Shown here piece after piece: positions 1-26,975 of a stretch of DNA of 26,975 nt. Every line of letters starts with the position of its first letter. Within the stretch, counting starts at the first letter, position 1. Made by a program: the position numbers and the translations under genes. The stretch covers positions 1 to 26,975 of the forward strand of contig AZLU01000358.1 in NCBI GenBank assembly GCA_002224055.1, in the 5' to 3' direction. The notes beneath the pieces were generated by a model. The model did not search any database, was not told where the DNA came from, and saw only the letters and a list, made by a program, of their open reading frames with translations. This stretch comes from Pezizomycotina sp. ARF18 (lineage: Eukaryota; Ascomycota).

Positions 1-399
1 ATATCTAGCCTAGTTAGCGTCTACGTAGATACGTAGAATCTAGTATTTTATCCTTTATCTTACGGGTATAATACGTAAGCGTATAATTAAAAAATTCTCT
101 TAATATCGTAGTATTTTTTTATACCTTCTTAATAAGTTTAGTTTACTTACTAACATATTACCTTAACGTTAAGATAGCGAAGGTATCGGTTAGTCTAGTA
201 AATAAGAATAGATTAACTTTTTATTATCTATTAATACTATATTACTAGTATAATTCTTAATCCGCGTTTAAAGAAATACCTTCTCTTTCTATTAGGAGTA
301 CTAATCCTGAGAGTACTCGAGCCTAAATCTCTAAAAAGTAATTATATATATATAGACTAATATAACATTAGGCGACGTTAATCTCTAGACCTAGTCTAT

Positions 400-960
400 T
401 TTACTTATATATTTAAAAAATAGGCTACTAACCCTATATCTTTATCTAAAGTATAAATTAAGATCTCGCTTAAGTATCTTAATTTATATTTATTAGATCT
501 AGCTATTAATAGATTTTAACGTAGATAATTTATTAGCCGATAATCTTTACTAATAAATAAGCTATATCGAGCCGATAAACTTAAACTTTAGTATTTAAGA
601 ACTAAGGTAAGTTCTTCGTACTATTTCGAGGTAACTATTTAAAGCCGTATAGAGTCTTTATAACTAAACTAATTTATTAATTTTTTCCCTTCTAGAGGCC
701 TATAATATTCTCTATTTTAGTTTAGGTATAAAGGCTATTATTATATCTATTTACTATATTTAAGATCGAGCTAGGCTACTAGTATAAGAATAGCCTTACT
801 ATTAATATCTTAACTACCAATATATATATCTCGTTATAATCGATCCTTTACTTTATATAACCTAAGTAACTAGTTTCAATTTAAATATTATAATCTAACC
901 GGTAATATCGCGCTTATATTTAAATATTTATTTACTATCGACGATATTATCTTTTAAGAG
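400..960 (-). pseudogene. copia reverse transcriptase remnant
   Basis: On the minus strand the codons at 901-954 read K-D-N-I-V-D-S-K-stop-I-F-K-Y-K-R-D-I-T. Undoing one G-to-A change (TGG to TAA/TAG) gives the W-I-F-K-Y-K-R-D block that opens copia reverse transcriptases. It continues at 841-903 with a block like G-x-I-x-x-F-K-A-K-L-V-T. Lower down, 533-562 reads S-L-F-I-S-K-D-Y and 414-512 reads L-L-I-A-R-S-N-K-Y through D-I-G-L-V-A-Y-F-L. These match the stretch around the catalytic YVDD box, which should lie near 511-529 but is not intact. The enzyme would have copied the element's RNA into DNA. Many in-frame stops make it non-functional. Confidence 0.8.
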
Positions 961-2879
961 GAGATCTTAAAAATCTATAGGTTTTTATACGTCTTATTTT
1001 TTAATCGAGAATAGTTTTTAATCTATCGATATATACTATCCTTTATAGTTTATAGAGCTTATAGCTTTTTTATAGATAAATAGCTCTAATTTATTAATAT
1101 ATACTATTAATCTTTATAGGCCTTCTCTCTAAGGCGTATAGCCGTTAGATTTTTACTAACATATCCTAGCCTATAGGGTATCTTTATAGTTTAACTACTA
1201 GATCTTATCTTTAGCGATTCTAGGAATACGCCTATTATCTTTAGTTAATCGTTATAGATCTATTTTATAGTATCTATATAACTTCCTTTATGAAGCGAAT
1301 ATCTTTTGGATCTTAGCTATAGACTAGCGTTATCGAGATCTTTGCTCTTATTCTTAGGCTATTCTAGCGTAATCGTCTCGTAAATATTTAATTAATGATT
1401 AGAAGTTAAATTTTAATTATAATCTAGCGCCGTTACTATTTTATTTTAAACCTATTCTAAGGTATTTTTAACGTACTTAAGAGGATCTTTATTATCCTCT
1501 ATAAAGTTACGTACTTAAAGGTTAATTTAATCGGAATCTAATATCTCTATAGATTAATACTTTACGGAAGTAGAATCTTAGACTCGGTAAATATTATAAG
1601 CCTCTAGACCTATAAAAATATCTTTTTTAATAATATTATCTAGCTCTCTTCTAAAGTTTACTATTAATATATACGTAATATAGTTTACTAAATATTCTAA
1701 ATTTAAGATATTAGGAGTTTTAACTTCTTATCTTCCCTATAATATCGTCTATTTACTATTTTTTAATACCTCGAGCGGTTTTAATAGCGTATAATTATAA
1801 ATTAGATTATAATAATTTACCGCCTCTACTTATAGCTATAGTAACTAATTCTAACGTAGCTAATATTATCTTTAATCTATTAATAAGAATCTAATTAAGC
1901 TTTTTAGGTATACTATTCTATTAAAATACATATATAGCTAAGATACGGATTATAATCCCTACTTCGTTATAATATCTATCGATTAGATATATTCTTTATC
2001 TCTATTATATTATAGCTTAATAAGCTTAAGGTTCGACTAACGTTTAGCTATCTTAAAAATACTATTAAAATATAAAAGTATTATCTTTACCTTTTTATCT
2101 TTTATAAAGTAGATCTAGAACTTCACGACTATTCCCTTTAAGAAGGTAATAACCCTATAATCTCTAAGGCTTTTATATACGCCTATTAGTAAAAATCTAA
2201 AAAGATTATCTCTATTAGCTTATACTTACTTAAACGGGTTTCTCGCGGTTTAATATAGCCTTCGATTTAGTAAGTCCGTAGGCCTCGTAGTTAATATAGC
2301 CCTAAAAATCCTTACCGTCTTTAGTAATACCGGTAACGCTTCTATATTAATTATTCGCTTAATATAATCCTTACGATATATCTAAGCCGTTTATATACTT
2401 TTTAATAGTAGCGAAAACTAAACTCTTCCTTATAGATATTAATAATCTTACCTAAGATCTCTTATAGTCCTATCTTTATAATAGCTTTAATCTTTAGCCC
2501 GGTCTAGTTATCGTATATCTACCTTATTAGATCGTTATTATATATTCTACCTTATCTATGCGAGAGATCGAATAGGCTATACTTTATCTTAGAGCGTATA
2601 GCGTATTCTTAAGTTTATAAGACTATCGCCGTACTTCCTACTAAGCCTTATAAATACTAAGCTAGTATTAATAGTCTATAGTACTTTTCTATTACCGATT
2701 ATAATATTTTATAGCTTTAAGAGGGGTTTATAGGTAGAAAATATCTTCTCTTATTATTATATAAGAAGATACGTCTAAGTTAAGGAATTATTAGATTGTT
2801 CTCTAAGAGCCGGTATCTTATATTAAGGTTTATATTATAAGGCCTAATACCCCGTTATTACCGCTATTCTTCTTATCCT

Positions 2880-2970
2880 TTATACGCTTTCTATAGTTGG
2901 CTCTCTTATATCTAACCTTATCGTAATAGTAATATTTTACCTTAAACTTATAAACCTTTTTATCGTTTTT
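2880..2970 (-). pseudogene. copia Gag zinc-knuckle remnant
   Basis: The minus strand reads K-Y-Y-Y-Y-D-K-V-R-Y-K-R-A-N-Y-R-K-R. Reversing RIP-type changes (Cys TGY to Tyr TAY, His CAY to Tyr TAY, Gly to Asp or Arg) yields exactly the spacing C-x2-C-x4-H-x4-C of a retroviral-type zinc knuckle, which binds the element's RNA in the Gag particle. The downstream basic R-K-R run also fits. Every zinc ligand is lost, each by a single transition. This is the clearest single proof of both the element's identity and the mutation mechanism. Confidence 0.85.
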
Positions 2971-3756
2971 TTTAGGTTTTACCTCGGCTATTTCTTTTAA
3001 ATAGCGCTATTATCCTTAGAGCTAACGTTTCTGGTATATCGTATTCTATACTTTACCTCTTTAATAAGTAGTGTTTTCTCGAGTATATTAAGGGTCGATT
3101 TTTTTACTATTAATCCGTTATTTACTAAAAGTTTGTAAAAACGTCTTCTAGTCGCTACTAAGATATTATAGATAAGATTAATAGTCTCTACTATAGCTAT
3201 ATTATTTTTAAGCTTATATCTAGCTCTATCTTCTTTACCGTTTCCGCCTTAGTCTTCTTTATTAAGATCGAGCCTAATATCTTATTATATGTTCTAATAG
3301 ATCTCGATGTTTTATATAAATCCTTAAATATTAACTTTATTCTTAAGTTAAATCTACCTTAGGATTTTTTAATATAAGGCTTACTAATAGCGGTAATAGC
3401 GATATACGCTAAACTTAAAGTATTCTATATCTTATTCTGCGCTATTATTAGTAGATTATAGATAAGTACGTTAAGTCTCTACCTCGTAGTAAGCTTTAAT
3501 AATAGTATACGCCTTTAAGTTATTATCTTAATTTTTAGTACTTGGCTCTACGTGGTTACCGTAGCCTTAAGCGGTTTACTAGTAATATCTTAGACTTTAT
3601 TATACTTAAGGAACGTAATTATGTGTATACTCTAATCGAGGTAGTTATAAGATAGCCTTTAGCTTTACCTCGTTAATTTTAGTAAGAAAAATATTATAAG
3701 ATATATCGTTTAGGGGAGATTAAGAAGTAAGTTAATTTATTAAAATATATTACTAA

Positions 3757-3770
3757 CCGGGCTTATAACC
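3757..3770 (-). promoter_or_regulatory. primer-binding site, half-tRNA (initiator Met) type
   Basis: Immediately inside the 5' LTR the minus strand reads GGTTATAAGCCCGG. With one RIP-type change undone (TAA back to TGA) it is the exact complement of CCGGGCTCATAACC, the anticodon stem-loop of initiator methionine tRNA. Drosophila copia is primed by the 5' half of this tRNA, not by its 3' end. The site also fixes element orientation: the interior lies toward lower coordinates. Confidence 0.8.
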
Positions 3771-4080
3771 TACTAGCGTAGATATATGGTATAATATCTA
3801 TAATATAGGATAGGATTGAACTTGTAGATTTAACTATAAAATTAATTAGACTAACTAAGGAAATATATATACTATATAATAAACTAATAATACTATAATC
3901 TTAATATAATATATATAGTCTACCTCGACGGCTCGTAGAGCCTTGTCGTCGTAATCTCCTTAATATCTATAGCTAAGATCTTAATATCTCCAGCTGAAGT
4001 TCCTTGTTCCTCAGCTATACAAGTATCATCTCGATGCCTATAGACTTGTCATGCCTCTTTGGCATGCCCAATAGCTAGCA
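3771..4080 (-). repeat. 5' LTR of the copia element (310 bp)
   Basis: On the minus strand it starts TGCTAGCTATTGGGC and ends CGCTAGTA, so the canonical TG...CA ends are present with the terminal CA changed to TA. It aligns along its length with the solo LTR at 14077-14343. Both carry the short inverted repeat ATGCC...GGCAT near the outer end (bases near 4053-4068 here). The mutation level is uneven. The inner part (3771 to about 3960) is AT-rich, while the outer 100 bases keep normal CpA and TpG content. Confidence 0.9.
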
Positions 4081-4396: not shown

Positions 4397-5446
4397 ATGG
4401 TCCCTTCTAACATTTTCGTCATGCTTCTTCTTTCACGCGGCTGTACGTCCGCGTAATACAACGCGGGGGTCCATTTTGTCGTAGCGCGTGGAACTGGAGC
4501 GATATTTTTGTGGCGATGGCGTGGTTTACGGTACTCGCGGAGGCACTCGTCGATTCGTACCTCGCGCATCTCAATTTTCCTGTTACGGATATACCGGGCG
4601 TACCTTATCCACCGAAAATTGCGATGTTTGATAAATAAAGTAATGCGACCAAGCAGGCGTGGGTAATTCTTGAGTGTCGGAGCGACGCGTTGCTGATATT
4701 TATTTTGTGATTTTTGTAGATAACGACAGCCGAGGCCGCGATCTATTGGTGGGTAATGGACTTCGTCAAAGCGTCGATGCTGTGCTTCTACGACGAGTTC
4801 ATAGGGAGGAGCGTGATGCCGACGACGTGGATGTTCATCCGCTTTGTTGGGGTTCTCATATTCTGCGGCACCGTCGCGTCACCAATCGTTTCGTTAGCGT
4901 ACTGCCTTCCGATTTATAAAAGATGGTAAACATCGCCTGCTCCAAACCATCCCTCTCACAAAAATTAATGTATTTCCTGATATTTTAGGACAAACGACGA
5001 AAAGCTTTGGCTCTCTGCCAAACCGAACAGATGCTCCTCCCCGCCTACCTCTTCTTCTGCCTCTTCGAAGTAATCACCGACATCCTCGTCATAATAATAC
5101 CCTTTTTCGTCCTATCGAAAATGCAAAACCTCCCCTTTAGACAAAAGCTCGCGTCGGGATGATGTTCGGTTTGGGTATTTTCAGTCTCGTCTGCTCGACG
5201 GTGTACACGTACTTCCTCGTCCAGATCGCGCTACAGATACAGAATAATTACAGCTACCTGTCGTTCTTCGTCGCGATGGCGGAGCAGAATACAGCCGTGA
5301 CGGTGGCGTGCATGCCGGCGTTCAGGAAGCTGCTGCTTTCCAGGGGTGTGACGAGGGAACCGGAGATATCGACGCAGGAGGTTGCGAATTCGAAGCGGAA
5401 AGCGACGCGAACTCGAGTTTCCCGACGATGGCGTCGAGTGTAACAA
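4397..5446 (+). pseudogene. SAT4/PTH11-type fungal seven-transmembrane protein, broken
   Basis: Resembles the fungal rhodopsin-like integral membrane family that includes PTH11-type receptors. Exon 1 carries R-L-Y-V-R-V followed by a hydrophobic run starting W-S-D-I-F-V-A-M-A-W-F. Intron 4663-4719 is phase 0. Exon 2 (4720-4925) has F-V-K-A-S-M-L-C-F-Y, then C-L-P-I-Y-K-R-W. Intron 4926-4988 splits the Trp codon. Exon 3 has F-E-V-I-T-D-I-L-V-I-I-I-P, then F-R-Q-K-L-A-S-G, M-F-G-L-G-I-F-S-L-V and N-T-A-V-T-V-A-C-M-P-A-F-R. Defects: a frame change between about 4411 and 4459, an in-frame TAA at 4636-4638, a frame change at about 5012-5030, and loss of one base at 5157-5159 (GG where GGG is expected). 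The cytoplasmic tail may continue in another frame to about 5607. ATG 4397 is the first start in its frame but is uncertain. It lies 316 bp from the retrotransposon. Confidence 0.75.
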
Positions 5447-9409: not shown

Positions 9410-9758
9410 CGATGGTGATATGACATGATATGGAGATTGTGGAAACTAATTATTGAAGCCCTGTCCTGATTTGTATGCCAAGTTGGAATATTTTATTAAT
9501 ATTCTCCGTTTTTTTTTTTTTTTTACTTATTAGCATTTCATGATTTTGGCAGCCAGCGACCCGGACTGTTATTATCCACAAAGCAAACTTAATTAATTCT
9601 GTGGAGACTTTCTCCTCCACGCTACAACTGTCATGCACTGTACACTATTTTTCTTTCTCCTATAATTCGTTCTAGGATATTCCATCTTTGATCTCCTTCC
9701 TGTATCCACTTCTCTCCAAGCTCCCTGTTCCTCGCCCGTACACTGGGGCCTCTGCAGT
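9410..9758. other. intergenic, with T16 tract
   Basis: No gene seen. Contains a run of 16 T at 9509-9524. The last 100 bases before the ATG at 9759 are pyrimidine-rich, as is usual upstream of fungal start codons, so promoter elements for the acidic gene may lie here. Confidence 0.35.
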
Positions 9759-11075
9759 ATGGTCAACTCTTACGCCGATATCCGCCGGCGCATCGGCGAA
9801 GACAAACTCACGGTAGAGCTGATGACGGGGCTTAAAAACAAGATCCAGCAGCAACCTCAGATCACACCCAGTAAGCTCAAGCGGAGTTTCGACTTATCTG
9901 CGCTGTCCGACGAGGACGTGCAATTCACCGTTACAAACATCAAATCCTTGCAGAAGAAGTTGGCGGCCAGAAAGGAGGGAAGAGAGAAACGGCTGCTAAA
10001 AAATAATACTAAAGAGCGGGCCAGGAAGGTGATTCCTGAAGATAAGGACGCGGAGGAGGAGATGGTAGACGCGGAGGAGGAAGGGGACATGATTGTGGTT
10101 AGGAGTTCGGAAGAGAAGGAACATGAAAAAGAAATGCCGGCCGATGAAAGCTCTGAGATACGACACCTGTTATCACGACGGCGGATAAGGATGCGGCAGA
10201 AGCGGACCAAAATTCTGACTCTACCGCCGCTGCTGCAGACGTGGAAATTGGAGAGGGAGAAGACCGGACCATCGAAGTCATTTCGAATGTAGTAAACACG
10301 GATTTGGACATTACGTTATGCTTTGAGTTTGAGAATATAGTGCCTACGCCGCCTTTGGAACCGGACTTCGAAGAGGTAACTATCAAGCTCTCGTTACGTT
10401 GTTTACCCGTTTTCGATGGGAAACAGGCTCACTGACACTCGTTGCCTTTCCCAAAGCTTGAGCGATCTATCCAGTTCACTTTGGTGTCGAGCCCGATCAT
10501 GTCGCCTTCGGAAATTTCGCGCCGCAGTATCGTCCATTCCCATCCGAGCAGACACTATCCGAGCAGATACCGCCCAACCCCTACCATCCGAACCGCTACC
10601 ATCAGTCCCTCTAAAATGCAAAACGCTACCATCCGAGCCCCTACCGATACCCGCCGAATCCACCAATACCGACTCGCGCTCTTCCGGGATATCTCCAAAC
10701 CATTTGTTATTTATTCGGATGCTTCTCCCAGTCCGGAGAAGGATGATGCTCCGCTAAAAGCAAATGGAAAGATCCCGAGCAGCAATCTTCGGCATCCCCA
10801 GAGAAGGAGAAGTCCAGCAGCTCGTCGCCTTCGGATACCACGAGCGTTACGCCTCCGGACAGTATCGAGAAGTCACCAGCAGCGGAGTCAGTCTCTTCAA
10901 GATCTTCAGAAGAGCTCGAGGAAGTCGCTCCCGAGAAGAAGTCTGAATCATCCGACGAGGAGGGCGATGACGCGCAAGATTACGATTACGATGATGACGT
11001 GGTAATAACGGGGAGGAAGACGATGACGATGACGATGACTACCGGGAAGAGGAGGAAGAAGTCGAGCTGGTGTAA
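9759..11075 (+). pseudogene. acidic low-complexity hypothetical protein, frame-broken
   Basis: Not recognised. The start at 9759 (M-V-N-S-Y-A-D-I-R-R-R-I) follows a pyrimidine-rich leader. The first 90 residues look structured: a helix-rich Lys/Arg segment with L-S-D-E-D-V-Q-F-T-V and then S-L-Q-K-K-L-A-A-R-K. After that come Glu/Asp-rich stretches, D-L-D-I-T-L-C-F-E-F-E-N-I-V, a Pro/Tyr/Arg segment near 10550-10650, a Ser/Glu-rich segment (10800-10950) and an Asp/Glu tail ending E-V-E-L-V-stop. The frame shifts about 10160-10170, again near 10770, and again near 11005. Each fits loss of one base; at the first, GAGAT stands where GAGGAT is expected. A TGA at 10433 and a TAA near 10617 also interrupt the reading. 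Total length would be about 435 residues. Acidic tails of this sort are common in nuclear proteins, but that role is speculation. Confidence 0.55.
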
Positions 11076-11993
11076 GAGAAAGAGGATGAGGTAATTAAAA
11101 TACGGAAGACGAGCCTTGGGGGAAGAGAAATCACTTATTGAAAACGCTGGTTCGAAATATGTTCATCAGAGGGTTCTGAAATAATGGTTCAACAAAGCCA
11201 ATATTACCGAACTGTTGTTTCCCTCTTTTTCCCTTTTTCTTTTCTTTTCTTTCTTTTTTTCTCAGGCAGTCATATATGTTTCATTACGCCCGCATTTCTC
11301 TCTCGCATACCCATAGGAAGCATTTTCAAGGTTAAGTGCATAGTGGAGTTCGTTCTTTGACTTACGGCGTGTACTTTCTTTCGTTCTTTCTTTCATATTT
11401 CTCTCAATTTTTTGTATTAAGGATAGTGGTCGTGCGAGTTCTGGGTCAGAGAGGATTATGATTACAATTCAAGACTTCTTTGAGATAAGATGAATGAATC
11501 TTCAAAGACAAAAACCCCATCTGAATATTTGAGCTGCGGCAAGCTCCTGCTTTTCCCTAAGCTCGCAATTAGCCTTGAGAAGCTCAAATGCCTAAATTAC
11601 AATTCCTACTTATAATTAACGGCCGATCAATTTCTTTGTCGATTGGGCTTCAGGGCCAATACTTGAAGAAAATATTAAAAATCGAGAATCATATATCAAG
11701 CTTGGACGATTTTTCAAAGAAACTGCTTGACATTTTCACGGCGGTTACCTCTAGTATCAATGAAGCATGCGTCCTTTCTTCATAGAACTCAACATACCTC
11801 CTTTATATCCATGAAGATAAAAGGATATATAACAGAATGCTTGCCTCCAGTTTTTTGTATTTTGCCCACATCTAATCCCAAGATACTAAAATATAAACAA
11901 ACTGAAATTCATTATTACCTATATTGTGGGAGAAGTTCAGTACAGAGTCTTCCCTTACTAGATATTTAAGTAATATCTGAACAAATTGAAAGA
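11076..11993. other. intergenic, no gene supported
   Basis: T-rich and CT-rich runs (CTTT-type at 11225-11260 and 11370-11400), short open frames only. The last part before 11994 could hold the promoter of copy A. No conserved signal recognised. Confidence 0.4.
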
Positions 11994-12524
11994 ATGTGCT
12001 GGCACCACTCCATATACATCGCGTGCCCCAAAGGGGAAGAACGCCTCTACAATATATTCCGACGCTTTTCAAAGAAGGACATCAGTTGCGGTAACATGTA
12101 TTGCAGGCGCACGGCATCCTTACGCGCCTTCCATATCGGCAGGAAATACCCTTGGGCCGAAAGTGCTTACAATACTTACTACACCCTGTATCTGCGAACA
12201 CTGCACCGGCCTCATCACGATCGTGGACTGGGTGAAACATCTTAATTCGAATAGTCTGTGCACAGAAGATGCGCCTAATGCGATATTGAGGAGGGAGTGT
12301 ACGAGATAGATAGGTTTTTGAGCAGATACCACGAGATTGACCCGAGGGGGCAAGCGAACCCGCTAAAAATCCAGACGATTTTCCGGATGAAGTGCCTTGA
12401 ACTGGATGCGAGACAGTTGGATCCACCACTGGTATTGGATTTGGGGCTGGAATGTCACTGGGAGGTACCAAAGCCTCCTGAGAGTCACGATACCTTCGAT
12501 ATTACCGAGGCTTTCCCTCCGTGA
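11994..12524 (+). pseudogene. tandem Cys-containing family, copy A
   Basis: Founder-like copy of a family repeated four times on this strand. The start reads M-C-W-H-H-S-I-Y-I-A-C-P-K-G-E. Then come spaced Cys residues, F-H-I-G-R-K-Y-P-W-A-E-S-A, Y-Y-T and a C-x-C-x2-C motif (C-I-C-E-H-C near 12187-12204), followed by I-T-I-V-D-W-V. The second half has I-D-R-F-L-S-R-Y-H-E-I-D-P and ends with P-P-L-V-L-D-L-G-L-E-C-H-W-E-V-P-K-P-P, then D-T-F-D-I-T-E. Two frame changes: one near 12185, where two bases are missing compared with copy B (ACCCTGT against ACCCTCTGT), and a one-base loss near 12300. Full length would be about 176 residues. No signal peptide or membrane segment. The Cys/His pattern suggests metal binding, which is inference. 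I do not know a named family. Confidence 0.65.
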
Positions 12525-12697
12525 AGCCTATTTTGCCGGAATTATGGTTTGATATTAGCTATTAAACGTACTGCTTTTTTCTCTCGTTTAAATCAAAATA
12601 GTTCTTGAAAATTTAATTTCCTTTATTCCAGCTAATTTCGGCAATAAATTCCGCCATCCTTGCCGCCCTATTGCTTAAAAGAGAGGATTCTTTCAAA
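12525..12697 (+). repeat. 3' flank repeat of copy A
   Basis: This flank matches 13852-14031 downstream of copy B. Shared phrases in order are GCCTRTTTTGC, TTTTGATATTWR, TCCAGCTAATTT, TCCGCCAT and TTAAAAGAGAGGATTCTTT. The duplication unit therefore extends beyond the coding part. Confidence 0.7.
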
Positions 12698-12779
12698 CAA
12701 GTGATTTTCGTGATAATCGCTGGTGCTTTAAGCTCCTCTTCTGCCTTCATGAACTAGACAGGTCGAGAAATGGTTAGCA

Positions 12780-13073
12780 ATGAATGTCTATGCCTTTACG
12801 TTCATTGAGTTCCAAGATGATATTTTTTTTTTAGCAATTTTCAGTAAATCACTAAGATACCATGCCTTTTATAATGATTTCCAGTCTAAACAGGATAGCG
12901 TAAGAAAACGGCCTAACCATGGCGTTAGAGTGCCAAATATAATAGATATTAAAAGAGCGCCATTAATTACGGCAACTACTGTAGGGCATTACACATCTCT
13001 TGCTACCGGCGCCGACGACGTGACAACGGGATTGATAATAAATAGTTATATATCTGAAAAAGAACGCAAATAA
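12780..13073 (+). CDS. small hypothetical ORF, doubtful
   Basis: A 97-codon open frame from ATG with no family resemblance I recognise. The C-terminal half (A-P-L-I-T-A-T-T-V-G-H-Y-T-S-L-A-T-G-A-D-D) has a protein-like composition, while the first part includes a Phe-rich stretch made by a T run. It lies between copies A and B and has no counterpart downstream of B. Could be a spurious ORF or an exon remnant. Confidence 0.2.
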   Translation: MNVYAFTFIEFQDDIFFLAIFSKSLRYHAFYNDFQSKQDSVRKRPNHGVRVPNIIDIKRAPLITATTVGHYTSLATGADDVTTGLIINSYISEKERK

Positions 13074-13329
13074 AAATTTACATGAAATTATGTTCACTCA
13101 GCTGCGCTTTTTTTTTTTTTTTTTGTCTTTTTTTGCAAATATATCTAACAGTATGCATCATTTGAGAATCGTTGAAATTCTGTGCAAAAAACGAGTCACG
13201 ACACTTTAAGTTATGAATTTTGAGGTAAGCACTCGTTGCCGTGCAAATTAATAGGCCAATCATGGGGTATCTTGTCAACTATATGAGAGAGTACCTTACG
13301 TAGGGTATAGTTATTATGACTCTGAAACA

Positions 13330-13833
13330 ATATGCTAAAACTACTATATATATATTGTTTACCTAAAGGAGAAACAATTTTTATAATATATTTTGACGCT
13401 TTTTAATAAAAAACATGAATTATGTTTTTTATAAACATATGATATTTTTATATATCCTTTATATTAACAGGAAATACCTTTGGGCAGAAATTGCTGAGAT
13501 AATTACTATACCCTCTGTACTTGTGGTGACTGCAATATTCTAACGAGCACTATCGTGGACTGGGTAGCCAATTTAACTTGAACCCCCCAGCGAGGAAGAT
13601 GCGCCTGCTCAGGTCACCGGGTGTGCCCTGGGGATAGACAGGTTTTTGGTGAATTACCACGAGAGGGCTCCGGGGAACCATGGCCCCGGGGGGCCGCTGA
13701 GATTCGGACGGATTAGTCACCTGGAGTCGATTCACGAGGAGGCGAAACGGTTAAACCCCCAATAGTACTAGACTGGGGGCTAGAGTGTACGTGGCGGGTA
13801 CCAAAGCACTGTTCTGAACACAATTCCTTCTAA
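13330..13833 (+). pseudogene. tandem Cys-containing family, copy B (half RIP-mutated)
   Basis: Codon-by-codon alignment with copy A shows the start ATG changed to ATA at 13330-13332 and the Trp codon TGG changed to TAA two codons later. The differences from copy A over 13330 to about 13470 are mostly C-to-T and G-to-A. From about 13471 the composition is ordinary: K-Y-L-W-A-E, then Y-Y-T-L-C-T-C-G-D-C and S-T-I-V-D-W-V. Further on it reads E-D-A-P-A-Q, I-D-R-F-L-V-N-Y-H-E-R-A-P-G and P-P-I-V-L-D-W-G-L-E-C-T-W-R-V-P-K. Frame changes fall near 13500, 13585 and 13755. The tail is shorter than in A, ending H-N-S-F-stop. Certainly inactive. Confidence 0.7.
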
Positions 13834-13851
13834 ATTACAGAGCAAGAGTGA

Positions 13852-14031
13852 AAGCCTGTTTTGCGAGAATCCCGTTTTGATATTTAACATATTTTTTTCT
13901 TTCTTTTTTTGGCATAAAGCTAGTAATATCGCGTAAGAATACCGGAAACAAATCCTCTTTTAATCCAGCTAATTTTCTACGGTATCCGCCATACATTATT
14001 TCATATTACTTAAAAGAGAGGATTCTTTGAA
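13852..14031 (+). repeat. 3' flank repeat of copy B
   Basis: Partner of 12525-12697. Similarity to the A flank fades after the GAGAGGATTCTTT phrase, 40-50 bases before the solo LTR target site. Confidence 0.7.
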
Positions 14032-14076
14032 AAAGACGCGTTTATTATGAACCGCTTTGCTGTATTAGGTAGATTA

Positions 14077-14343
14077 TACTAGCCGAGATCCATATAATAT
14101 CTAATAATATAAAATAGGATTAAACTTATAGATTTAATACAAAACTAACTATCCTTATTTAAAAAATATATATAATCTACCTTAAAGACACATAGCGCCT
14201 CGTCATTATAATCTCTTAATATTTATAGCTAGGATCTTGATATTTTTCGCTAAAGTTCTTTTTTTTTTGTTTTTTTAGCTATATAAGCATTATCTCGATG
14301 TCTGTAGATTTTTATACCTCTTTGGCATGCCTAATAGCTAGCA
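14077..14343 (-). repeat. solo LTR of the copia family with target duplication
   Basis: Aligns with the LTR at 3771-4080 in the same orientation but is about 43 bp shorter. On the plus strand it runs from TACTAGCC to GCTAGCA. It is flanked by the 5-bp direct repeat GATTA at 14072-14076 and 14344-14348, the usual copia target-duplication length. No internal sequence remains, so the two LTRs of an inserted element probably recombined. Terminal CA to TA change and AT-rich interior show RIP. The outer end (14310-14343) is less mutated. Confidence 0.9.
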
Positions 14344-14348
14344 GATTA

Positions 14349-14973
14349 TGCTTCAAGCGCGTTTAGTGCCTCCGTAAACTCGTGCGATCGGGAAGGGGTA
14401 GCGATGAAGCGTTAATATTTCTGAATTGGTTTAGTTCCAAGTTATTTTTCCAGTAAATTTCCCCGTGAGGTTTGAGGATATGTGTTGAGGCGAGATATTT
14501 CGTGAGACCAAATTTGTATTCTGCGGCAACAAACTTGCTTTCATGTTGAACTTGAAGAGGCACTCGCTGTAGTAACCAATATATTCCTTAGCTAGCTAAT
14601 TACCAGAAGAAGAAGAAGTTTGCAATATTAAGAACATAAGATATAAATAAACATTCCCACAAGTCTCCCCCCTTCCACATATTTGGGAACTTAGGAGTTT
14701 TCCAGATGTATCTCTCATTCTCTGTGTATCTAGAATATCCTACAACACTCGCCTCTTTCCTGCAGTAGCATCTCAGGTCATACTGCTGTAACCTTAAGTC
14801 ATTGCAGGGACATAAAACTTCTGCCAGACAGCTTTCTTCTTGATGTATTCTCCAATCTCATAATCGATACACCTCAGAAAATCTTTGATAGCCGGTTCTA
14901 GTATCTTAGGAGAATTCAATAAAGGGTCGACCTCATTTTATAGTTGAATAACCACCCATTCTCAAAAGGAAAG
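14349..14973. other. intergenic between solo LTR and copy C
   Basis: Mixed composition with short open frames on both strands and no gene I can support. The final portion precedes the ATG of copy C and may contain its promoter. Confidence 0.35.
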
Positions 14974-15574
14974 ATGGGCTTCCACCAGAGTGTGTATTTG
15001 TCCTATCCCAGCGAAGAAGATCATCGCAGGAACATAGTACAGCGACACACGATTCGAGATATCCGCATCTGCAATAATATCCGATGCCAAAAGGTGAAAA
15101 GGCTTCTGCGTATGGGAGGGAAATTGGAGCAAAAGTCTTTGTGTGTCTTTCGCTTATTTGTGTCACCATAGTTGTGTGTTTTTATAACAAATCTACAAAG
15201 AACTTCTATATCGATTTTAATTATTAAAGAACTTACGCACCCCAAAAAGATTGTGGATTCCGTTATACTGGTCAATGCTCCGGGACGCCTGATGCGCGCC
15301 GATCCATAAAGAATATCACGAGAGAGTTTCTACGGGATTTAAACGCCTTTTTCGTCGCGCTTCACGAGAGATCACCGGAAATTATAATACGGCATATGGG
15401 ATTCTCGGTGTTCTTTCCATACCATCGCTGCAGAGCAGGGCTACGGCTTTCCTTCGGCCACTAGTGGTAGACGGGAGGCTTATCTGCGAGTGGGCGATAC
15501 CGAAGCCCCCGCACAGGCGTCATACATTTGAGGTTATGGGTAACCGTCTATTTTGGACAGGGGAATCTAGCTAA
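14974..15574 (+). pseudogene. tandem Cys-containing family, copy C (most diverged)
   Basis: The start, M-G-F-H-Q-S-V-Y-L-S-Y-P-S-E-E-D, matches the N-terminal block of A and D, but two conserved Cys are replaced (Cys2 by Gly, and the Cys of A-C-P by Tyr). R-N-I-V-Q-R and the spaced Cys residues follow. The CxCxxC region near 15150-15190 is not convincingly kept. Then 15312-15390 reads I-T-R-E-F-L-R-D-L-N-A-F-F-V-A-L-H-E-R-S-P, parallel to the I-D-R-F-L...Y-H-E block. The end, 15460-15574, reads P-L-V-V-D-G-R-L-I-C-E-W-A-I-P-K-P-P-H-R-R-H-T-F-E-V. Several frame changes and stops lie between 15110 and 15330. It is longer than the other copies, with extra sequence in the middle. Confidence 0.6.
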
Positions 15575-16659
15575 TTTCAAACTTGGGAATCATATTTCGA
15601 GCAAAATGAATTATATTGAACGCGAGTAAGAATACAGTCCCTCGGATTTATGTAAATAGTAGGTTTGTCTGCTTGAAATATATCAACATAGCTAGTTCGA
15701 GTGCGCCTTAAACTGATACTATTGACTGATTTTGATAATCCTGTGCCCACCGATGCAGTACCGAATTGAAGGGGAAAAAGAAAAAAGGATAGTATACTGT
15801 CTTGCATTAGTTGATCGCGTATATTAAATACTAGATTTTATTCGTGCCTTGTAATGCATATTTAAAGAACGGTAAATCGGCCGTTAACGCGTTCTCGTCC
15901 GTTTCGTATAGTTCTTTGTTATATATATCCCACCGTTAGAGAATTAGGGTAGCCGGCCTACGTGAGGACGAATCAAATGAATAATAGTAGTAAGGGGGAG
16001 CATAGGCAGTAAATTCCTTGCTTGAGGGCTTAAATACGTAAGGCTTTGAGCAAAGTGCGAAAATGTCACGAATGTACGACTTCCGGAGATTGCTCCGGCG
16101 TACCAAACATGATAGGGCTTGTAAGACACTAGAAAAACTCCAAGGCCCCGAGGATCAAGCCTCTGCGGTTAGCGAAATACTTGGGTTCACGATTAGCGCT
16201 TGCGTTCAGACCCGTTGTTGTATCTGATCAGATGTAAGAAAGGCTGAACGGTCATTCTAAATTAAACTCTTGCATTTGGTTTTTTCCGGATTGAGTCACG
16301 AATATTATACCGAATTTCGATTGGTCGTTATCGCGATTTATTCTCATTTTTGAGGTGGAATCGAGCTTAAGTTTGAAACCAGGAGTTTCTGTCATAACTG
16401 AATAGCTATCAGCCCATTTCTTGAAATGCATCAATCGCTACTTGTATATAATGGGGGCAAATAGCTTTGCTAAAAGGCTGTATTTTTCAATACACCTATC
16501 CGGTACTACAGCAGGGGAAAACAAAAGAGGTATAGGAATCCCAACTTCTTCGAGAGTAGATCTAAGGAAAGGTTCGCCGTTTCGCTCCTTCAATATCCAT
16601 ATATTTATACGCCTGAGAACAGACACATACCACTTCAAAAAACACCCTATTTAAAAGCA
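15575..16659. other. intergenic between copies C and D
   Basis: No well-supported gene. One short plus-strand frame at 16063-16227 (54 codons, M-S-R-M-Y-D-F-R-R-L-L-R-R, ending T-R-C-C-I) has a protein-like composition but no recognised family. Minus-strand frames near 15577-15807 and 15944-16129 look random. Confidence 0.35.
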
Positions 16660-17205
16660 ATGTGCATCCATCATATCATATACCTTGCCTGTCCGAGCGG
16701 GAGGATAGCCGCGATACAATCGTGCAGCGTTACAGCGAGCCTCACCATGCATGCCGTCATCATAATTGCAGGAACGTCCAAAGCATCCGCGCTCACCACA
16801 TCGGATGCAAGTACAAATGGAGCGAGAGCGCAAGCTACATGTACTACGTAACGTGCAATTGTGATTACTGCGTCCGTTTTGCAGAGCTCGTGGCATTTGT
16901 TAAGCGCGCCAATACCACCGACACCGAAGAAGCTCTCATTCCGAGGGAGGAGGTGGCTAGGGCATGTCTCCGGACGGTCAATACAGTTTTTGAGATGTTG
17001 CACCGGGCTTCGCCGGGAGATCAAGCCCAGGCGCCCTATGTGAATCGTTGCTATGCCTTGGCGGCCTGCCTCGGGAGCTCAGGCCAAGGAACTTGCGACC
17101 ACCACATTGGGTAGAAGACAATATGTTAGAGTGCCACTGGAGGGTACCGAAATCTGCCGAAAGGCGGGTACATTCGAGGTTACGGCGGATGACCTGCCGG
17201 ACTAA
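16660..17205 (+). pseudogene. tandem Cys-containing family, copy D (best preserved)
   Basis: The start reads M-C-I-H-H-I-I-Y-L-A-C-P-S-G, then (after one missing G in a GGGG expected near 16700) E-D-S-R-D-T-I-V-Q-R. It continues A-C-R-H-H-N-C-R-N, H-H-I-G-C-K-Y-K-W-S-E-S-A, M-Y-Y-V-T-C-N-C-D-Y-C and a stretch ending F-V-K-R-A-N. The second half has V-F-E-M-L-H-R-A-S-P-G-D-Q and N-M-L-E-C-H-W-R-V-P-K-S-A-E-R-R, then T-F-E-V-T-A-D-D-L-P-D-stop. Three frame changes (near 16700, 17035 and 17168) each fit loss of one base, and I see no in-frame stop outside those. If these are assembly errors, copy D could be an intact protein of about 182 residues. Function unknown. Confidence 0.65.
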
Positions 17206-23959: not shown

Positions 23960-24090
23960 ATGTCCAGTCAAAACGACCAAACTCCTACTTCCCCTTCGAG
24001 GGTACAAGGCTCCGTTAGTGCCGACGGAGCTAGCGCCTACATCGACGGGATTAGGGTTAATATTATCCGCGAACTAATGATCCGGCTCCC
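23960..24090 (+). pseudogene. truncated gene start abutting a poly-T tract
   Basis: After a pyrimidine-rich leader with CAAGCC before the ATG, the frame reads M-S-S-Q-N-D-Q-T-P-T-S-P-S-R-V-Q-G, then D-G-A-S-A-Y-I-D-G-I-R-V-N-I-I-R-E-L-M. At 24091 it enters 19 consecutive T and AT-rich DNA, and the remaining frame to 24184 is Phe/Tyr-rich junk. The sharp break suggests that the rest of the gene was lost or displaced by an insertion whose A-tail reads as T here. Family unknown; the protein start is Ser/Thr/Gln-rich. Confidence 0.4.
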
Positions 24091-24764
24091 TTTTTTTTTT
24101 TTTTTTTTTGTGGGTTATTTTTTTTGGTCGAAATCATATACTCTCACTTTTCGTTTAAAATTATATTATTACTTTTATAATTAACTTTAACTATATATAA
24201 TTACTTATACTATTGTTATTATTAATTCTTATTTAATATAATTGGTCGTCTTCGCTTTATCCTTCGTGAGCCGTTTTATAATATGTGAGTTGGTTTTTAA
24301 CTAATAATTTACCCGTTTAGCCGTCCCTCTAAATTTTTCTATATAAATTAAAGCCTTTCCCTCTTATTAGAAAAATAATCTTTTTAAAATATTCTTTTTC
24401 CCTTACTGAGATCTTGCCGCGTCGTGGTTCAGTATTAATAATAAATACCCAAGCCAAAAAAAAAAGAAAAAAAAACTGCCAGGAGCCGAAAAGAAAAGAG
24501 CCAAAATAAATAAATAAAAAAATAAAATAAAATAAAAAATAGAAAATACCAAGTCTTTTATACTGCCCATTTCAGCATCTCTCCTTTAATTTTAGTTATA
24601 CCTCTTAATAATTATCACTAAACTTCTTATTACTTTTATAACTGAGAGAAGGTACTTAGCGAGATACTTCTCTATTTTTTGTAACGATAAATAACCATTC
24701 TAAATTAGTCGACCTTTTAAGACCTATCCATAATTAATTTAAAAATATTTAATCTTTAATTGGC

Positions 24765-24796
<32 letters not shown>

Positions 24797-25959
24797 ACTT
24801 TGATCCCTCTTAACGTATTTCTAATACGCTTTACGAAAGTACCTTAACCCTCGAGCCAACTGCGAGAATAGAAATGGGAAGAGAAAGGGAAAAAGAGAAG
24901 AAATTAAATATATAATTTCTTTACTCGCCTCTGCTTAAGCTTTTAAATCATACGCATACCCCTAAATAGCTTTCTCTACGATGCTTTACCAGCAGAATAG
25001 TATCGGCACTAACTTAGTCGCGTCTACCATAGCTACAACTTTCCCCAGTACAAATTATAATAAACCTACAGCAATCCTCTAGGTACCAACTAGAACGAGC
25101 AACTTATATATAGGCCGGCTCGTGCCTTACAACCGGCAGATAGGAAAACCACTCGATACCTAGTAGCGAGCAGTTTGCCCTCAAGTTATTATTAATAGGA
25201 TGTTTCGGAAGCAACGGAAATTTCGGTTGTATTAATAATAGGGTTAGGAGTTGAGCACTAAACAAGTTTCTGACTAACGTACACAAATGTATCGCATATC
25301 AATCTTACCGCTCTCGCTTATAAGTCTAGAAAGAGGAAGATATATCGACTTTAGAAGACGGGGCGTCTAGTCTTGCTTGAAGAGGATTTTTTTTTTAGAT
25401 ATAGACGTACGAAAAGTATTTTCTAGCTAGGATCGTAGAAGAAATCTCGACAGGAATGACTCATAATTTTTTAAAAAATCGATTTTGGAAATTGGGTCTT
25501 ATAGATTCTTCCCGGCTAGGAATTTTTTTTTCTTTTAGTCTTGAGCACCAGACACCTTTTTTTTTTTATTTTTTTTTATTTTTTTTTTATTTTTTTTTTC
25601 CTTTTTTCCCCTACCTTTCTAACTTATGCGGTTTATAACGAATTTTTTAACATCCTATATTAGATTTTTCCTACTTCTTTTGTATTTGCTAAGATAGCCT
25701 ATAGGTTTAGCATCATTTCTATATTGTGTATAATTTTAAGACTGATTTACTTTGTTAAATGTTTAGATATCTTATATTTATGCGCCGGTATGCTGTAAAT
25801 TTTTCGAAAGCTTCAAAAGGAGAGTGTGGACCAGCTTATGTCGGGAGCCGGCTATTTAGAGAGCGAAATAAAAACTATACCTTTCGCTATATTAAGCACT
25901 TAACGACGACTAGAAACTTAAGTTATTTGCTTTACGGTCTATTTCTCTTTCTTTAGCTA
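24091..25959. other. AT-rich degraded block with long T tracts
   Basis: No gene. T runs of 19 (24091-24109) and 26 (24765-24790), and a T-rich stretch interrupted by single A (25557-25600). A-rich runs near 24456-24540. Short frames on either strand lack any family likeness. GC content and CpA use vary, so several old insertions of different age may be stacked here. It could contain remnants of non-LTR elements (T runs as reversed A-tails), but no polymerase motif was found. Confidence 0.5.
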
Positions 25960-26742
25960 TAACCTCCTTTCCTGACTTCGAGGGCTCTTCTTTGCCGTAC
26001 ACCCGAGTCCTGCTTCCTTAGCGTTCGTCTTTTTTTTACTACCGTTGTACTTTCTTTGTATTAAGCTTAAGCCTTTTCTTGAGTTGCCGGTACTCTCGCT
26101 CTTTTGATTCTTATCCTATAAAGCTTCGCCGACGAAGTTATCTCCGCTAGCGTTTTTTCCTTTCTCCGCTGCCGTCTGCGGTTTCTTCGCCTTTTCCGCT
26201 TCCTTCTTCGTATTTGTCTTCGCTGAGACTCCTTTCTCCTTCGCTTAACTCTTCCCTTTATAGCAGCCTTATCCTCGTCTTCTTTAATATACTTCTGCTT
26301 CGTATCCTTCTTCGTCTCTCTCTTCCTACACCTCTACCGGTCGACTAACCTCTCTATCGCCGATGCCAGTCCGAGCGTAGCCGCGAACGCTTTTCGAAAC
26401 ATTAGCCGCTTTATCGTCTTCCTAACCGGCTAACCCTTAGCTTCTCCCCTTTTAACCTTAACCTTCTACGGCCGTTAACCGCCGCGTCTCGTTCTCCTCA
26501 AAAGTAACTCAGCGATTTTTTCCTCTTTCGACGGTTCCTTCTCAGCTCGTCCTCCGCGTCGCCGGAATCGAAGTCTTCTCGTCATCGCCCTCGTCGAGAA
26601 AGGTATGTGTGTTCGATCGCGCCAGACGGGACGGATTTGGGGCCCTCTTTCTGGCCCCGCCGGGTTCCGGTGCCACTTTTGTTGGCCCGTCCGGAGCGCG
26701 ACGCGAATTCCGCCAAGATTTTTTATTTAAAATAATAAACAT
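25960..26742 (-). pseudogene. Lys/Ala/Glu-rich protein remnant
   Basis: GC-richer island inside AT-rich DNA. The minus strand reads G-A-R-K-R-A-P-N-P-S-R-L-A-R-S-N-T-H-T-F-L-D-E-G-D-D-E in the first part (26742 to 26570). After a frame change comes D-S-G-D-A-E-D-E-L-R-R-N-R-R-K-R-K-K-S. Toward 26200-25990 it reads K-T-N-T-K-K-E-A-E-K-A-K-K-P-Q-T-A-A-E-K-G, later K-S-E-S-T-G-N-S-R-K-G-L-S-L-I. The middle is full of stops. Basic/acidic low-complexity proteins like this are often nuclear, but nothing identifies the family. The upstream part lies in AT-rich DNA and the start is unclear. Confidence 0.35.
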
Positions 26743-26975
26743 ATAGATTATTTATGTAATTTTAATTATTTTTTATATTTTTATATGATTTAAATATTAT
26801 TTTTTATATATATTTTATATATTATATTTATTTATTTTTTATTTAATTATTTTTATTATTTATTATATTATTATATTTATATAATATATTTATAGCTACT
26901 ATATTTCCATATCTACTACTAGTAATTCTTATACTATAGTTTATTACTATAGATATCTACCACTAATATCTCCCT
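26743..26975. other. extremely AT-rich tail of window
   Basis: Almost only A and T to about 26890, with TATATA and TTTATT runs, consistent with a RIP-saturated repeat continuing past the window. No features. Confidence 0.6.

Follow-up and report, generated by a model that had tools for sequence, protein, structure and literature searches.

Four copies (A to D) of a small cysteine-containing gene lie on the forward strand of contig AZLU01000358.1 (C358) of Pezizomycotina sp. ARF18, which is analysed here in its full length of 26,975 nucleotides (the window), and they belong to a family that occupies about 52 loci on 17 contigs of this 46.36-Mb genome of 408 contigs. We lean towards a reading in which this family spreads by tandem duplication and encodes small intracellular proteins whose fold probably centres on zinc, with copies A and D possibly working and copies B and C apparently dying. 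The first-pass annotation of the window had described the four as an unnamed family sharing five ordered blocks, i.e. an N-terminal HH/Y-x-A-C-P block, H-I-G-x-K-Y-x-W, C-x-C-x2-C, F-L-x-x-Y-H-E-R-x-P and a C-terminal L-E-C-x-W-x-V-P-K-P-P, at a spacing of 1.3-1.7 kb and with unequal divergence. All four copies were recovered in the same places and on the same strand, with start-to-start spacings of 1.34, 1.64 and 1.69 kb, and their likeness exceeds chance. In genome-wide searches the N-terminal piece of A retrieved D at E 6.5e-7 and C at E 0.039, its C-terminal piece retrieved B at E 6.3e-6, C at E 0.005 and D at E 0.19, and reversed six-frame segments searched with the family profile gave no match at E ≤ 1.

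The extent of the family beyond the window was established by two kinds of search. Single-sequence searches at E ≤ 0.01, with five family pieces and the C-terminal piece of A, yielded 37 loci, which lie on 14 contigs. Joining them with the loci found at E ≤ 0.05 by a profile built from an alignment of 22 family pieces, and merging neighbours within 700 bases, led to the figure of about 52 loci (twelve on C87, seven on C328, four each on C104, C187 and C358, three each on C146, C3 and C62, two each on C11, C57 and C8, and one each on C1, C127, C148, C214, C4 and C43), a count that is uncertain both ways, since only the best candidates were scored and some flanks lay outside the stretches scanned, so that copies may be missed, and some weak single loci may be chance matches. 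In the sequence stretches scanned the profile matched 69 pieces at E ≤ 0.05, or 66 after three same-frame overlaps were dropped; matches were kept at E ≤ 1 in an earlier scan and at E ≤ 0.05 in the later scans with the family profile and with the C-terminal block. The copy number thus reaches well past the four copies of the window.

Many of these loci are arranged in tandem arrays with a spacing of 1.3-1.7 kb. Seven copies on the forward strand of C87 start at about 35.0, 36.6, 38.1, 39.6, 41.2, 42.5 and 43.8 kb, in steps of 1.3-1.6 kb that resemble those of the window. Head-to-tail order is not universal, for the first 10 kb of C328 (1-10000) carry five family copies distributed over both strands. 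Aligned pieces from the same contig share a mean identity of 0.306 (66 pairs) versus 0.237 for pieces from different contigs (820 pairs), a difference reached in none of 1000 permutations of the contig labels, and the simplest reading is local tandem duplication. Numerous copies bearing cysteine motifs could also be expected of relics of mobile elements or viruses, for example gag-like proteins with zinc knuckles. We nonetheless hold this origin to be very improbable: the copies stand in arrays at 1.3-1.7 kb, the gag knuckle C-x2-C-x4-H-x4-C (CCHC) was not seen in the aligned pieces, and Pfam revealed no transposon domain in the 22 family pieces (single weak viral-glycoprotein matches only, at E 0.04 and above), in 44 open reading frames (ORFs) of the window or in 16 further ones from stretches of C87, C104 and C328, which include family pieces; PHROGs returned one weak match of unknown function.

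The encoded proteins are about 160-180 residues long. Their conserved cysteines number eight at most and run from C2 and C11 through a C-x(1 or 4)-C pair and C-x-C-x2-C to a C-terminal C-x-W. Residues were counted over the 66 non-overlapping profile pieces, with denominators that vary by position. The start is Met-Cys (M in 35/37, C in 34/37), followed by a tyrosine (37/42) that precedes C11 (40/42), the C-x-C or C-x4-C pair (35/37 and 37/38), I/L-G (G in 29/33) and Y-Y-x2-C-x-C-x2-C (Y in 29/39; the cysteines in 36/38, 36/37 and 36/37). Seven cysteines are therefore almost invariant despite mean identities of 24% between and 31% within contigs. The C-terminal block, G-L-x-C-x-W-x-V/I-P-K, is a property of part of the family only, with 11 matches in the stretches scanned; in nine of them a family anchor is found immediately upstream, and the other two belong to copy B and to a weak C104 copy, the latter under the anchor limit. 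One member, at C146:65055-65534, consists of a single open frame from Met-Cys to a C-terminal W-x-x-P. The N terminus conforms to the pattern MCxxxxIYLACP, and neither a hydrophobic signal region nor a signal peptide was seen there by eye (MCWHHSIYIACPKGEE in A, MCIHHIIYLACPSG in D), upstream exons being possible.

Within the window the four copies have fared very differently (Table 1). The earlier description of five blocks in order holds for A and D, holds for B with the first two blocks eroded, and fails for C. In B, block 1 is reduced to YIYCLPKGE and block 2 to RKYLWAE without HIG, the three N-terminal family cysteines are unrecognisable and the middle cysteine pair is gone; CxCxxC, FLxxYHERxP and GLxCxWxVPK are still in place. 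Copy C retains the C-x4-C pair, ALHERSP as block 4 and LICEWAIPKPP as block 5. Its block 1 has lost its cysteine (MGFHQSVYLSYP), block 2 is poor and, in a three-frame translation, C-x-C-x2-C was unreadable in all frames. The proposal that the duplications differ in age is supported by this unequal divergence and by the non-coding sequence downstream, which among the repeats reported for the window is common to A and B only (61% identity over 189 columns); the shared 3' flank indicates that the unit whose duplication gave A and B extended past the gene itself.

Table 1. Positions of the four copies and of the shared downstream sequence in the window.
Feature	Positions	Strand	Description
Copy A	11994..12524	+	starts MC; 8/8 family cysteines; all five blocks
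Copy A, frame pieces	11994-12185, 12187-12278, 12279-12524	+	three frame pieces
Copy A, 3' non-coding flank	12525..12697	+	recurs behind B; repeat families D4, D8 and D13
Copy B	13330..13833	+	decayed-looking; five pieces in different frames
Copy B, 3' non-coding flank	13852..14032	+	counterpart of the flank of A
Copy C	14974..15574	+	most diverged; MG in place of MC; C11 replaced by Y; 3/8 cysteines
Copy D	16660..17205	+	starts MC; 8/8 family cysteines; all five blocks
Copy D, longest single-frame piece	16698-17111		

All four copies change frame, with two changes in the 531 bases of A (3.8 per kb) and two in the 546 bases of D (3.7 per kb; three changes if the last codons are included). These breaks would argue for a pseudogene graveyard, with all four copies and the greater part of the family dead. 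Conserved genes of the same assembly are, however, broken in the same way. The control took all ten places of the actin family and Hsp70 that had at least three profile pieces. Frame changes free of an intron-size gap occur at nine of them, and the rates are 3.7, 3.4, 2.8, 1.7, 1.6, 1.5, 1.4, 1.3, 1.1 and 0 changes per kb, that is, 28 changes in 14,608 bases or a pooled rate of 1.9 per kb; changes next to such gaps were not counted, so that this figure errs on the low side. Introns as an explanation for the broken control genes were rejected for the 28 of the 40 changes at the ten places that have no such gap. A first control on four hand-picked places had given 4.2, 3.4, 3.8 and 1.4 per kb. 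Therefore, frame breaks alone are no mark of a pseudogene in this genome, and those of A and D, for which the first-pass annotation had assumed a need for frame correction, are compatible with assembly noise and not necessarily a sign of decay; they are weak evidence either way. A and D, both with the full set of cysteines, could well be functional.

Copies B and C, on the other hand, look decayed, which counts in favour of the graveyard explanation. B changes frame four times in about 500 bases, above every control place, and C holds only three of the eight cysteines. Aligned base by base to A, B has ATA at its start and meets a stop two codons later, and an ATG in a neighbouring frame opens the short piece containing the eroded block 1 before further stops. 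Comparison with A also uncovered a one-way burst of substitutions in the first 200 bases of B (13330-13530), where 49 changes run from C/G to T/A against 6 in reverse, with 15 transversions. The bias is gone in the rest of the gene (24 against 32; 68 transversions), and the 3' flank gave 15 against 17 (41 transversions). Such a burst resembles repeat-induced point mutation (RIP), yet instead of being focused on CpA it is spread over contexts, C-to-T changes having occurred at 11/17 sites before A, 8/11 before G, 6/15 before C and 5/13 before T. Extending death from B and C to the other two copies and most of the family seems to us unlikely, although still worth serious thought. Nine of the ten control places are likewise broken, A and D have lost no cysteine, seven cysteines persist nearly throughout the family in spite of 24-31% mean identity, and the member on C146 is open throughout.

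Several observations do weigh against the reading that we favour, of a living, cysteine-constrained family in which A and D possibly work. Copies A and D sit at the top of the control range, where about one change per copy would be expected and two or three are seen, and many other family copies contain stops or frame breaks, noise and decay being inseparable copy by copy. The residue counts include the 22 pieces from which the profile was built among the 66, and finding pieces by profile favours those that keep their cysteines. The eighth cysteine is not universal, as the C-terminal block of the open copy on C146 (GKWLIP) lacks it. In favour of the reading, the third codon position was the most different in 37 of 40 listed pairs (of 136 pairs, 101 exceeded the score limit), as expected under constraint at the protein level, with three pairs in the opposite sense (A versus L009, L054 versus L013 and L004 versus L013); this comparison was protein-guided, which favours the first and second positions, and it serves as supporting evidence only.

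Searches for known relatives placed the copies in no named family. In Pfam-A none of four pieces of the copies reached a curated cut-off, and for the 22 family pieces each listed Pfam family was matched by a single member, the best at E 0.0012 (DUF4240); each listed model of NCBIfam and PHROGs was likewise matched by only one of the 22, and the best match of a profile search against PDB structures (E 0.084, choline trimethylamine lyase) was taken as chance. The zf-TAZ domain (PF02135), a cysteine-rich zinc fold, matched the D piece only weakly (E 0.19 and 12.6 bits, where the cut-off is 25), and only one of the 22 pieces matched it, with a best E of 0.032. Searches of a protein collection whose fungal coverage looks poor gave 16 candidates with D and 1143 with the 22 pieces, none of them at E ≤ 10. 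That coverage was gauged with an Hsp70 piece of this genome, for which the closest of 120 matches listed had 81% identity and the only organism-named one came from the glomeromycete Dentiscutata; the length limit of this search also left out full-length Hsp70s. Without a close fungal match even for Hsp70, the novelty of the family is not settled. A control with the small fungal family Con-6 (PF10346) was uninformative, with no match in this genome or in 14 control genomes. In literature listings and the opening parts of abstracts, on the topic and on CxCxxC families, the family was not recognised. Structure prediction for the D piece (138 residues, with a five-row alignment of window pieces only) returned a pLDDT of 49.6 and a pTM of 0.32, and the fold is not usable. 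The family thus has no name in Pfam, NCBIfam, PHROGs or PDB, which agrees with its first description as unnamed; that it is undescribed is not proven. Small hypothetical proteins of ascomycetes starting with MC-x8-C show the same C2-x8-C11 spacing and may offer a lead to relatives; they usually continue with Gly-His or Gly-Cys, whereas the window family mostly has Pro-x-Gly-Glu.

The following scheme could account for these features. The family, which grows by local tandem duplication, would lose members by mutation. A cytosolic protein is suggested by the Met-Cys start and the lack of a signal peptide by eye, and its cysteines would most probably hold one or two structural zinc ions, letting the surface diverge fast; zinc would be likelier than disulfides because the cytosol is reducing. 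Metal binding, already suspected from the Cys/His residues in the first-pass annotation, is more plausible now that each cysteine has proved to be conserved over about 40 pieces. At a guess, the cysteines might form two sets of four, one made of C2, C11 and the C-x1/4-C pair and the other of C-x-C-x2-C with the cysteine of the C-terminal C-x-W, a grouping that the open C146 copy, lacking the last cysteine, would seem to weaken. The most economical reading of 24-31% identity around fixed cysteines would be that the proteins bind partners or act as adaptors through a surface that changes fast, and A and D may be intact and expressed members of this kind. We hold this scheme with moderate confidence; the family is a clean orphan one that lends itself to experimental test, with a mechanism that is only proposed.

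Filamentous fungi are known for gene families that are lineage-specific, have expanded in tandem and encode small cysteine-rich proteins, and the window family likewise has small, cysteine-rich products, many divergent arrayed copies and no named domain. The best-known of these fungal families are secreted, whereas this one has a conserved Met-Cys start and no signal peptide by eye. Its members could still be effector-like proteins released without a signal peptide and diversifying under pressure from hosts or competitors, as their small size, cysteine content and many divergent arrayed copies would allow, together with contig ends that are strongly AT-rich with RIP-like indices. This seems to us improbable, since no hydrophobic signal region is seen by eye in the MCxxxxIYLACP start and the excess of changes at third codon positions points to constraint and not to diversification.

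Other features of the contig were recorded along the way. Positions 1-4000 of the window have a GC content of 0.27 and a (CA+TG)/(AC+GT) index of 0.09, and positions 24001-26975 have 0.35 and 0.59, respectively; by the usual thresholds for RIP indices both are RIP-like, the former to an extreme degree. Positions 5141-5443 of the forward strand encode part of a fungal rhodopsin domain protein (PF20684), with a match that passes the curated cut-off at E 2.2e-7 and is in keeping with a filamentous ascomycete. Upstream of copy A, on the same strand, overlapping open frames of 208, 189 and 115 amino acids at 9666-11094, rich in acidic and Ser/Lys runs, are perhaps one gene in several frames and gave only weak Pfam matches (SWAP1_C, E 0.0053).

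Beyond the window, the control on conserved genes carries a practical warning, since claims of pseudogenes based on frame breaks in this genome need it. Since the cysteines are conserved at 24-31% mean identity and no signal peptide is evident, a single open member would also allow a direct test of zinc binding. It is tempting, as a long shot, to imagine an undescribed zinc-fold family whose fifty or so divergent tandem members in one fungus would make up an intracellular system of variable recognition or genetic conflict, for example in self/non-self recognition or in drive and its suppression. Should it prove restricted to a single lineage, the family would represent a sizeable unannotated part of a fungal gene set, one that gene callers are likely to miss on account of the frame breaks in the assembly.

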